A stretch of DNA of 33,982 bases, taken from NCBI GenBank assembly GCA_020629775.1, contig JAHDCP010000023.1, positions 1-33,982 of the forward strand. Direction: 5' to 3'. Shown in pieces: positions 9,589 through 13,816 of this stretch. The position numbers and the translations under genes are program-made. The stretch comes from Planktomarina sp. (GTDB lineage: Bacteria > Pseudomonadota > Alphaproteobacteria > Rhodobacterales > Rhodobacteraceae). Every line of letters starts with the position of its first letter. Within the stretch, counting starts at the first letter, position 1. A model generated the notes under the pieces. The model worked only from the letters and a program-made list of their open reading frames with translations. It made no database searches and had not been told where the DNA came from.

Positions 9589-10302
9589 TTATCCTTTCCG
9601 CACTGTGCGTTGTTCGATCCGCTTTTCATGCGCACCTTGGAAAAGGCGGTGTACATATATGCCCGGCAAATGAATGGCGTCTGGGTCTAGCGATCCCGTG
9701 GGCACAATTTCTTCCACTTCCAACACGCAGGTTTTGCCGCACATGGCGGCAGGCGGGTTAAAGTTGCGGGCTGTCTTGCGGAAAATGGCGTTGCCGGTCT
9801 CGTCCGCTTTCCAAGCCTTAACGATTGACAGGTCGGCGAACATGCCTTCTTCCATGATATACGTTTCCATGGACCCATCCGCGCCAGTGGGGAAGTCTTT
9901 GTGTTCTTTGCCTTCCGCGATCACGGTGCCCACACCGGTTTTGGTGTAAAACCCAGGAATGCCGTGCCCTGCGGCGCGCATGCGTTCTGCCAACGTACCT
10001 TGCGGATTGAATTCCAGTTCCAATTCGCCCGACAAATACTGCTGCATGAAGGTATCGTTTTCCCCAACATAGCTGGAAATCATTTTCTTCACCTGGCGGG
10101 TTTGCAACAAGATGCCGATACCAAAGTCATCAACGCCTGCGTTGTTGGAAGCGAAGGTCAAATCTTTGGTGCCTGCGTCCTTGATGGCCTGCAAACAAAG
10201 TTCTGGAATGCCGCACAATCCAAAGCCGCCAGCGGCGATGAACATGCCGTCTTGTAACAGGCCATCCAATGCCTCGGCGGCGGAAGCGTAAATCTTTTTC
10301 AT
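9589..10302 (-). CDS. scoA: 3-oxoacid CoA-transferase subunit A
   Basis: The 237-residue subunit has the class I alpha-subunit features: [12 protein letters not shown] near the N-terminus, [16 protein letters not shown], and [18 protein letters not shown] 10302 has a strong AGGGGA ribosome site. It is translated immediately before scoB (four-base gap), as usual for the heterodimer. The leader on the complement at 10321-10364 can fold into a long interrupted hairpin, described separately. The gene faces away from the iron transporter gene, so the two share a 160-base divergent promoter region. Confidence 0.93.
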
Positions 10303-10320
10303 GGGTCCCCTCATCGGTCT

Positions 10321-10364: not shown

Positions 10365-10385
10365 GCCGTGGAATGGCGCACGCGG

Positions 10386-10391
10386 TTGACA
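10386..10391 (+). promoter_or_regulatory. Candidate -35 element TTGACA
   Basis: A consensus TTGACA lies 20 bases upstream of the ICE palindrome. No good -10 is found at exactly 17 bases (CAATTT), but the AT-rich ICE would cover the -10/start region. That is the expected place for a repressor site. The exact promoter is uncertain. Confidence 0.35.
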
Positions 10392-10411
10392 AAAAGCGCC
10401 CCGACCATCAA

Positions 10412-10428
10412 TTTAGAATCATTCTAAA
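10412..10428. promoter_or_regulatory. Iron control element (ICE), predicted Irr operator
   Basis: TTTAGAA-TCA-TTCTAAA is a perfect 7-bp inverted repeat with a three-base spacer. It matches the ICE motif known to bind the haem-responsive regulator Irr in alphaproteobacteria. It is 34 bases upstream of the ATG of a VIT/MbfA-like iron transporter, the same class of gene that Irr represses under low iron in Bradyrhizobium and Agrobacterium. Repression of this gene when iron is scarce is the natural inference. Confidence 0.85.
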
Positions 10429-10462
10429 AACTAAACTTCCACGGACCAAAAGGGGCGGCACC

Positions 10463-10951
10463 ATGAGCAAAAGCCTGTCAGAAAAAGAGCGGGATTTCGT
10501 TTTAACCTATGTCCAGCCTGGCCTGGCGGGGTTGATCGATGGATCCATCTCCACGCTTGCGCCGATCTTTGCGGTTGCCTTTGCCACCCGCGATCCATGG
10601 ACCACGTTCTTGGTGGGCTTGGCTGCCTCATTGGGGGCAGGGGTGTCCATGGCCTTTACCGAAGCGGCCAGCGATGACGGTTTGATTTCCGGGCGTGGGT
10701 CGCCGGTGATCCGGGGGATCGTCACCGGGGTGATGACCACCGTTGGGGGCTTGGGCCACGCCTTGCCGTATCTGATTGCGGATTTTTGGTGGGCCACCAG
10801 CACGGCCATCGGCGTGGTGTTCGTGGAACTGTGGGCCATTGCATGGATTCAAAACCGGTGGATGAAAACCAGCTGGACCCGCGCCATTGTACAAGTGGTG
10901 ATTGGCGGCGCATTGGTGACAGCCATCGGGCTTTTGATTGGCGTCAGCTAA
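10463..10951 (+). CDS. VIT1/CCC1-type iron transporter, MbfA-like membrane domain only
   Basis: The 162-residue membrane protein has the VIT/MbfA features: YVQPGLAGLIDGSISTLAPIFAVAF as the first helix, SLGAGVSMAFTEAASDDG with the conserved acidic helix, and RGIVTGVMTTVGGLGHALPYL. Three further hydrophobic stretches reach the C-terminus. MbfA proteins export ferrous iron; they normally carry an N-terminal ferritin-like domain, which is absent here, leaving only about 12 residues before the first membrane segment. ATG 10463 follows AGGGG by 7 bases; the upstream GTG-type extension is not protein-like and would run through the operator. A perfect ICE box sits in its promoter region, supporting iron-responsive control and an iron exporter role. 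Confidence 0.85.
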   Translation: MSKSLSEKERDFVLTYVQPGLAGLIDGSISTLAPIFAVAFATRDPWTTFLVGLAASLGAGVSMAFTEAASDDGLISGRGSPVIRGIVTGVMTTVGGLGHALPYLIADFWWATSTAIGVVFVELWAIAWIQNRWMKTSWTRAIVQVVIGGALVTAIGLLIGVS

Positions 10952-11227: not shown

Positions 11228-13816
11228 TCAGCCCTTTTTGGCAGCCGCCTTCTTAGGCGCCGCTTTCTTTTTCGCGGGGGCCTTTTTCTTGGCCACTTTT
11301 TTGCCGGTCTTGGCCGCGCGTTCCGCGATCAAATCCACTGCTTGGGCCAGGGTCAAATCCTCTGGCTTCACGGTTTCTGGGATCGTCGCATTGATCTTTT
11401 CCCACTTCACGTAAGGGCCGTATTTGCCGTCAAACACGTTCACGGGACCCCCAGCTTCTGGGTGTTCGCCCAACTCGTGGATGGGAACCGCCGCTTTGCC
11501 GCGATTGCCCCGGCTGGCCACTTTGGCCGCGATCAATTCAACAGCGTGGTTCATGCCCACAGTGAACACATCGTCCAAGGATTCCAGGTTGGCATTCACG
11601 CCGCCCCGGTCCGAAGTGCTCTCAGAATACTTAATGTAAGGGCCATAACGGCCGATATTTGCCCAAACGTTGACCCCATCTTCTGGGTGCGGCCCAATCA
11701 AGCGGGGCAGGGACAGAAGTTTTACTGCCGTTGCCAGATCCACTTCTTCAGGCGGCCATTCCTTGGGAATGGACTGGCGTGGCGGTTTTTTGTTTTCTTC
11801 GGTCACTGGCCCGCGTTGGGCGTACGGTCCAAAGCGGCCTTTGAACACGCGGATCTCATCACCGGCATCGACACCCAGCAATTTGCCATCGGGTGGGATT
11901 GCCATATCGTCGTCATCCGACGGGGGGCCGAAGGGCCGGGTAAACCGACATTCCGGATAGTTCGAGCACCCGATGAACGCACCACCCGACCGTGCCGTGC
12001 GCATGGACAACCGACCGTTGCCACAGTTTTTACATTGGCGCGGATCAACGCCTGGCTCTTCTTCGGGAAAGATGTGGGGGGCCAAAACTTCGTTAATCTT
12101 TTCAAGGACTTCGGTGATGGATTTGTCCATGGCATCATCAATCGCCACTTTGAAATCCTGCCAAAAGCCTTCCAACACGTCCTTATATTCCCGGTCCCCC
12201 GCCGACACATCGTCCAGCTGTCCTTCCAAATTCGCAGTGAATTCGTACTGCACATATCGGGCAAAGAAGTTGGACAAAAACGCTGTTACCAAACGCCCTT
12301 TGTCTTCTGGAATCAGGCGATTTTTGTCTTTTAGAACATATTCGCGATCCTGGATCGTGGTTACGATGGACGCGTACGTGGACGGGCGGCCAATGCCCAA
12401 TTCTTCCATGCGTTTGACCAGGCTGGCTTCCGTGTAGCGCGGCGGTGGTTGGGTGAAATGCTGTTCGGGTGTGACACCGGATTTTCCGGCAGCTTCGCCT
12501 TGCACAACTTGGGGAAGGCGTTTGTCATCATCATCCACCACGGCATCATCACGGCCTTCTTCGTAGACACGCAAAAATCCGTCAAACAGCATCACTTGGC
12601 CGCTGGCACGAAGGCCGACCTGGCCATCTGCCGCACCGATTTCTACGGTGGTGCGTTCCAGTCGTGCGCCTTCCATTTGGCTGGCCAGTGTGCGCTTCCA
12701 GATCAGATCGTAAAGCTTGCGCTGATCCGCATCAGTGACCTTCAAATCATCCGCGGCGCGGGTCATGTCTGTGGGACGCACACATTCGTGGGCTTCTTGG
12801 GCGTTCTTGGCTTTGTTCTTGTAAATCCGTGGCTTAGACGGCACGTAATCCTTACCATACCGGTCTTGAATGGCATCGCGGGCGGCATCCACGGCTTCTG
12901 GCGCCATGTCGATGCCATCGGTCCGCATGTATGTGATGTACCCCGCTTCATACAGACGCTGCGCACAAGACATGGTCTGACGTGCGCCAAAGCCGAACTT
13001 GCGGCTGGCTTCTTGCTGAAGGGTGGATGTCATGAATGGCGGGGAAGGGTTGCGCGACGCCGGCTTTGCTTCCACCGAAGCGATTGTTAAATCCCGCGAA
13101 TTGATGGCCGCCACAGCCAATTCAGCATCTGTAGAATTGGCCAAATCAAATTTGTCCAATTTTTTGCCGGAAAGACTGGTCAATTTTGCATCGAATTCAT
13201 GACCACGCGGCGTTGTCAGAACGGCCTTAACGGACCAATATTCTTGGTTGTTGAAGCTTTCGATTTCCATCTCGCGTTCAACGATCAAGCGCAAACAAAC
13301 AGATTGCACGCGACCAGCAGATTTGGCCCCTGGTAAACGGCGCCAAAGCACCGGAGATAACTTGAAGCCCACCAAATAGTCCAATGCCCGACGCGCCAGG
13401 TATGCATCCACCAATTCTTGATCCACTTGGCGCGGATTCTTCATCGCTTCTGTCACGGCGGACTTGGTGATGGCGTTGAACACCACCCGACTGACCGGGG
13501 TGTCTTTCTTAATGGATTTCCGCTTACGCAGCGTTTCTTCCAGGTGCCACGAAATGGCTTCACCTTCGCGATCCGGGTCCGTGGCTAAGATCAATTCGTT
13601 GTCGTCTTTTAGGGCATCTGCAATGGCTTTGACGTGCTTTTTGCTGGCAGGAGCGACTTCCCAAAGCATTTCAAAACTGTTGTCCGGATCCACTGATCCG
13701 TCTTTGGGGGGCAGGTCCCGAACATGCCCGTAGGACGCCAAAACGGTAAAGCCTGGCCCCAGATATTTGTTGATTGTCTTTGCCTTAGCGGGCGATTCAA
13801 CAACGACGACGGCCAT
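11228..13816 (-). CDS. topA: DNA topoisomerase I
   Basis: The 862-residue type IA topoisomerase starts with the TOPRIM domain (MAVVVVESPAKAKTI, ATDPDREGEAISW with D80/D82/E84). It has the SAGRVQSV motif, and catalytic tyrosine Y296 in YITYMRTDG. One four-cysteine zinc finger is visible (CKNCG ... CSNYPEC, around residue 595-625). Three C-terminal repeats follow (GRFGPYAQRG, GRYGPYIKY, GKYGPYVKW). It ends in a Lys/Ala/Pro-rich tail that probably binds DNA non-specifically. The enzyme relaxes negative supercoils and is essential. ATG 13816 is the natural start. dprA lies just upstream on the same strand, a common pairing in this group. Confidence 0.97.
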   Translation of the reverse strand: MAVVVVESPAKAKTINKYLGPGFTVLASYGHVRDLPPKDGSVDPDNSFEMLWEVAPASKKHVKAIADALKDDNELILATDPDREGEAISWHLEETLRKRKSIKKDTPVSRVVFNAITKSAVTEAMKNPRQVDQELVDAYLARRALDYLVGFKLSPVLWRRLPGAKSAGRVQSVCLRLIVEREMEIESFNNQEYWSVKAVLTTPRGHEFDAKLTSLSGKKLDKFDLANSTDAELAVAAINSRDLTIASVEAKPASRNPSPPFMTSTLQQEASRKFGFGARQTMSCAQRLYEAGYITYMRTDGIDMAPEAVDAARDAIQDRYGKDYVPSKPRIYKNKAKNAQEAHECVRPTDMTRAADDLKVTDADQRKLYDLIWKRTLASQMEGARLERTTVEIGAADGQVGLRASGQVMLFDGFLRVYEEGRDDAVVDDDDKRLPQVVQGEAAGKSGVTPEQHFTQPPPRYTEASLVKRMEELGIGRPSTYASIVTTIQDREYVLKDKNRLIPEDKGRLVTAFLSNFFARYVQYEFTANLEGQLDDVSAGDREYKDVLEGFWQDFKVAIDDAMDKSITEVLEKINEVLAPHIFPEEEPGVDPRQCKNCGNGRLSMRTARSGGAFIGCSNYPECRFTRPFGPPSDDDDMAIPPDGKLLGVDAGDEIRVFKGRFGPYAQRGPVTEENKKPPRQSIPKEWPPEEVDLATAVKLLSLPRLIGPHPEDGVNVWANIGRYGPYIKYSESTSDRGGVNANLESLDDVFTVGMNHAVELIAAKVASRGNRGKAAVPIHELGEHPEAGGPVNVFDGKYGPYVKWEKINATIPETVKPEDLTLAQAVDLIAERAAKTGKKVAKKKAPAKKKAAPKKAAAKKG

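Follow-up and report, generated by a model that had tools for sequence, protein, structure and literature searches.

The window, meaning the whole 33,982-nucleotide stretch of Planktomarina DNA analysed here, carries a short mbfA gene between a CoA-transferase subunit gene (scoA) and the gene of DNA topoisomerase I (topA). The reading frame is open, without stops, and the product retains the membrane (VIT) half of MbfA and lacks the ferritin-like half. Ahead of it lies an ICE box with no mismatch to TTTAGAA-N3-TTCTAAA, just as an initial sequence-only reading of this DNA had described it. The coordinates of the features are given in Table 1.

Table 1. Features of the short mbfA locus (positions in the window; basis of each assignment in the last column)
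Feature	Position	Strand	Basis
Divergent neighbour, CoA-transferase subunit A (scoA)	9589..10314	-	frame list and annotation
-35 hexamer TTGACA	10386..10391	+	read from the sequence; TTG placed as in 37 of 43 family promoters
-10 hexamer CAATTT, 17 nt past the -35, overlapping the ICE box	10409..10414	+	read from the sequence
ICE box (predicted Irr operator), TTTAGAATCATTCTAAA	10412..10428	+	pattern match and conserved place before mbfA of the family
Probable ribosome-binding site AAGGGG, 7 nt ahead of the ATG	10450..10455	+	read from the sequence
Ferritin-less mbfA, 162 aa, five-helix VIT half	10463..10951	+	profile matches and structure model
First nine codons (MSKSLSEKE), probably left over from the tip ..LSEQE at the N-terminus of full-length MbfA	10463..10489	+	profile score
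Downstream neighbour, DNA topoisomerase I (topA)	11228..13816	-	frame list and annotation

The NCBIfam profile of MbfA (NF045676) aligns with the short protein solely over positions 162-317 of 318 (280.7 bits, E 1.7e-83), below the equivalog cut-off of 450 bits; for comparison, a full-length relative reaches 567.5 bits across positions 1-317. Full-length relatives carry the rubrerythrin domain PF02915 at 1e-32 to 1e-35, and profile search found nothing of this N-terminal ferritin-like half in the short protein. The protein belongs to the Pfam VIT1 family (PF01988, 46.7 bits, cut-off 28.1), with profile positions ~53-130 unmatched, which means that the canonical cytoplasmic metal-binding loop of VIT1 is absent, and its VIT half is 71-78% identical to members of the Rhodobacteraceae family. 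A structure model (pLDDT 93.1) has the VIT fold, its best solved match by Foldseek being VIT1 (6iu3, TM 0.69, E 0.014), a structure that a sequence profile reaches weakly (E 0.056). The description of the transporter as an MbfA membrane half without its ferritin-like half therefore stands. An overlooked ferritin domain upstream, a possibility raised in the same reading, is ruled out: the in-frame extension to the ATG at 10373 holds none, and the divergent scoA gene, starting at 10314, fills the space that such a domain would need.

Nor is the ferritin half, or the separate ferritin-like partner that had been envisaged, encoded elsewhere as a PF02915 or PF00210 protein; these two families, which the search covered, have no match anywhere in the genome (98% complete), and in control genomes PF02915 was found in 9 of 14 and PF00210 in 14 of 14. 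Within the genus, PF00210 (ferritin, bacterioferritin, Dps) occurs in one of 20 genomes, so the genus seems to manage with hardly any ferritins. The sole genome with a ferritin-family protein (G011, contig C12, L150 1501-2076) has two PF00210 genes, and its Dps-like gene is preceded, 108 nt ahead of the start, by a perfect ICE box. In the genome of the window, a second VIT gene on a 5.8 kb contig (G000:C81:4026-4644; L010 1330-2140) does encode the canonical metal-binding loop; part of this locus is masked, and the frame is apparently interrupted close to where the loop half ends.

The N-terminus suggests how the short gene arose. Scored against the N-terminal tip of full-length MbfA, residues 2-9 (SKSLSEKE) reach 12.5 bits, compared with -14.9 for the inter-domain linker, which rules out a linker origin, though a MAFFT default alignment had put these residues against the linker. 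The six-frame window holds 54,687 words of nine residues, and a single one, the short protein's own, reaches the 12.5-bit tip score; this test was made after the fact, but a remnant at the tip is what an internal deletion would be expected to leave behind. The pattern points to an in-frame internal deletion of ~154 codons with the promoter kept, which, counted on L036, would have removed residues 18-171 and joined LSEKE to RDFVLTYVQPG. The start codon lies four codons before LSEKE in the short gene versus about 12-15 in full-length genes. A look for repeats marking an insertion at the locus gave nothing convincing.

A tree built from 88 VIT halves places the short protein within a 73-row MbfA clade (100/99), and the loss of the ferritin half is therefore derived; with 30 of 85 forks open and the bootstrap not settled, the exact place of the protein within the clade is unsure. 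In the rest of the clade the ferritin half is encoded within long frames (that of L021 is broken), which rules out an ancestral ferritin-less form. Matches to the short protein occur in 33 of 101 genomes (the genome of the window plus 100 relatives), in 264 of 394 from the family and in 26 of 385 from the class. The 19 other Planktomarina genomes gave no match and have no detectable mbfA, so the short form belongs to one species, and the sequence-only reading went too far in speaking of a lineage.

Among the matches listed (all but about 22 of the 264 family genomes, by hand count) most frames have at least 325 aa, and no abundance of short forms in the family was seen. Frames below 300 aa among these matches include the window's own (202 aa), a partial match in G439 (residues 6-123) and a weak one in G429 (E 9e-4). 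Several candidates were set aside: G041 has a frame break with the ferritin half upstream, G402 has the ferritin half upstream in another frame, G384 is full length apart from an internal TGA, and the matches in G364, G149 and G027 run into contig ends. The broken gene in G384, a one-contig family genome, is a full-length mbfA with an in-frame TGA (G384:C1; L136 1434-2390).

True short forms besides that of the window are found in G089 (L121, 168 aa), as a second copy in G685 (L139) and on a Phycisphaerales MAG contig (L110, 171 aa); all three lie outside the MbfA clade of the window. The L110 gene (1045-1560), on a contig labelled Phycisphaerales (Planctomycetota), encodes a ferritin-less MbfA half 67% identical to that of the window, with no ICE-like box nearby. 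In G685, which has a full-length MbfA, the second, ferritin-less copy (L139 about 2276-2698, contig C93) is 50% identical to the window's.

Under a first-order Markov model of the window, the expected number of perfect ICE boxes is ~2e-5 in the window and 0.0014 in a genome of 2.66 Mb, and the whole genome contains two, that of the window and one at C113:32719. The second box (C113:32719-32735; L002 1501-1517) lies upstream of lipA, encoding lipoyl synthase, an iron-sulphur enzyme. At weaker match levels the counts carry no signal in this genome, the pattern and its reversed control giving 3 versus 2 matches at up to one mismatch and 74 versus 140 at up to three. Stronger evidence for the predicted operator is its conserved place before the mbfA genes of relatives.

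That place was examined in 56 Rhodobacteraceae mbfA genes, taken from loci returned as best matches to the short protein and hence not a random sample, with start codons picked by script. An ICE box with up to three mismatches lies within 150 nt of the start in 43 of the 56; 23 have at most one mismatch, six are perfect, and 13 genes have none within that distance. The box of the window, spacer included, consists of the commonest letters of the family boxes, and its distance to the start is 51 nt (28-47 nt, mostly 28-35, in the family). In 37 of the 43 promoters with a box a TTG lies 28-23 nt ahead of it, and in 36 a TA lies three and two nt ahead; from this spacing the box overlaps the -10. 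The -10 of the window begins with CA, a one-letter departure (C for T) from the TA of the family, and a sigma-70 consensus scan called no promoter in front of the short gene because of this poor -10. The box thus stands at a repressing position in the promoter and is conserved among orthologues, in agreement with the earlier claim that regulation has been kept: the predicted Irr operator and the promoter layout of full-length mbfA are retained. According to the available text of an R. sphaeroides study, Irr binds the mbfA promoter in gel shifts and the 5' transcript end lies inside the box, and the iron response of mbfA proceeds without a major role of Irr (PMC3413700). In S. meliloti, as described in the accessible part of PMC7540006, the mbfA promoter is controlled by an ICE motif that overlaps its -35 and -10.

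The genome encodes irr, whose presence the sequence-only reading had left to be looked for. Of three FUR-family matches, the one on contig C22, beside a gene that we take to be fabA, passes both curated cut-offs (NF045677, 203 bits, cut-off 170; NF045678, 201.4 bits, cut-off 150) and contains an HPH motif. The C132 match has an ABC transporter gene next to it and resembles Zur. In the text available from PMC7762939, Irr is said to have a conserved HxH motif and to sense haem, and the ferritin half of MbfA is described as a ferroxidase needed for transport; the earlier naming of the ferritin half as a sensor was thus a misnomer.

One ICE-box locus was read in each of the 19 other Planktomarina genomes: in twelve the box falls at an iscR-like Rrf2 gene's promoter, in four it precedes a gene that we take to be nfuA, in one it precedes a ferritin-family, Dps-like gene, and in two it lies elsewhere. 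For iscR of R. sphaeroides an Irr box is predicted, with binding there unconfirmed and binding near the isc-suf promoter P3 confirmed, according to the portion of PMC6956336 at hand.

The neighbouring genes bear on how the short gene came to its place. The scoA gene is present in 18 of 20 genus genomes and is 94% identical between the window and G013; in G013 and G014, the nearest by scoA, it adjoins topA without mbfA between them, and in G011 other DNA lies between. Neither scoA nor topA was found beside mbfA at the loci of 57 relatives (56 from the family, one from the class; ~1.5 kb on each side, E 1e-8). Third-position GC is 0.72 in the short gene versus 0.58-0.63 in three neighbours. Gain of the gene by transfer and survival of a last copy fit these data alike.

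The explanation we favour, and hold to be somewhat probable, is that the short protein is a derived, ferritin-less MbfA, an Irr-regulated iron exporter with predicted Fe2+ export in a VTL-like mode. The internal deletion would have removed the ferritin-like half, while the extreme N-terminal tip survived along with the promoter and its Irr operator. Under shortage of haem and iron, Irr on the ICE box would block the overlapping -10, and a rise in haem would make Irr release the box, so that the short protein is made. VIT1 is a dimer, and the short protein probably dimerises in the inner membrane in the same manner. It would export Fe2+ straight from the cytosolic pool, as plant VTLs may, with neither a ferroxidase step nor a partner bacterioferritin. 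That the iron supply to the exporter differs, as had been suggested from the letters of the DNA, may fairly be inferred for this species. The evidence for the short form comes from one genome, at the level of sequence and model.

The main rival, which we judge unlikely, is that the gene is a decaying relic which, having lost an essential ferritin half and with it iron export, is drifting toward loss, mbfA being already missing from the rest of the genus. The ferritin-like domain, located on the cytoplasmic side and endowed with ferroxidase activity, is said to be required for transport in the available text of a review (PMC7762939), so the short form may be inactive. The protein has evolved fast, with an end branch of 0.91 against a median of 0.087 (about ten times) and 18 residues novel with respect to 56 family sequences against about one in a typical member; a relic would also agree with the lack of a match in the 19 other genus genomes and with the -10 that is one letter off the family pattern. 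However, the frame is free of stops, the operator is perfect and equals the family consensus, the fold model is confident, and similar ferritin-less halves occur in L110, L121 and L139. Moreover, none of the 59 columns invariant among 79 other sequences is changed in the short protein (P 7.7e-5 in a hypergeometric test that treats columns as equal); conserved columns were counted because third positions are near saturation for a silent-site test. On these counts the gene looks maintained.

Improbable in our view is that the transporter is functional but has taken on a different role while still controlled by Irr: it would move Mn2+, Co2+ or Zn2+, or serve mainly in peroxide defence. Going by the titles of 6iu3 and 6iu4, VIT1 structures were obtained with zinc and with cobalt; H2O2 strongly induces mbfA in R. 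sphaeroides according to excerpts of PMC3413700, and the 18 novel residues lie in the pore half. Against this reading, the short protein retains every invariant MbfA position, and the operator ahead of its gene is that for iron. We give very little credence to a loss of the ferritin half during draft assembly, for although this is a single draft genome of 144 contigs, judged from the assembly, and none of the 19 other genus genomes matches the short gene, the gene lies mid-contig between topA and a scoA closely matching that of G013, and its re-formed N-terminus, with the nearer start codon, shows that it is no plain cut.

If the short protein is indeed a derived, ferritin-less exporter, one may further propose, tentatively and with rather less assurance, that a natural deletion turned a ferritin-dependent exporter into a stand-alone one that takes Fe2+ from the free cytosolic pool under Irr control, in a genus nearly without ferritins. 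Ferroxidation and docking of ferritin would then be dispensable for MbfA-type export. A protein that has the operator and the pore and lacks the ferritin half, encoded in a genome where neither ferritin family searched has a match, is a ready natural test of how iron reaches the MbfA pore: iron export by it would make the ferritin half an accessory, and failure to export would mean that a domain loss has been caught en route to the loss of the gene. The literature searched, which lay mostly outside subscription journals, gave no account of an MbfA naturally without its ferritin half.

Compared with known systems, the protein shares with MbfA (NF045676; B. japonicum Blr7895, R. sphaeroides RSP_0850) the VIT half, the promoter layout, the ICE operator and the 59 invariant positions, and it differs in the absence of the ferritin-like half, a domain with which bacterioferritin interacted in a two-hybrid assay according to the accessible part of PMC4902296. 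The bare MbfA-type halves of L110, L121 and L139 are likewise ferritin-less and ~170 aa long, and 47-67% identical to the window's protein; the best ICE-like match at their loci has at least four mismatches, in contrast to the perfect box of the window. The vacuolar iron transporters VIT1/CCC1 (PF01988; 6iu3, 6iu4) have, by the model, the same fold, but the window's protein lacks the metal-binding loop that VIT1 has on the cytoplasmic side between membrane helices two and three; yeast Ccc1 shortened at its N-terminus is still functional, though less so, in the available text of PMC8235630. Lastly, the portion of PMC7540006 available likens the plant VTLs (nodulin-21-like) to the membrane domain of MbfA and describes them as lacking the cytosolic loop. 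Like the window's protein they consist of a VIT membrane domain with neither loop nor ferritin domain, a likeness of mode, whereas the window's protein, as judged from a tree of bacterial sequences, derives from bacterial MbfA by domain loss.
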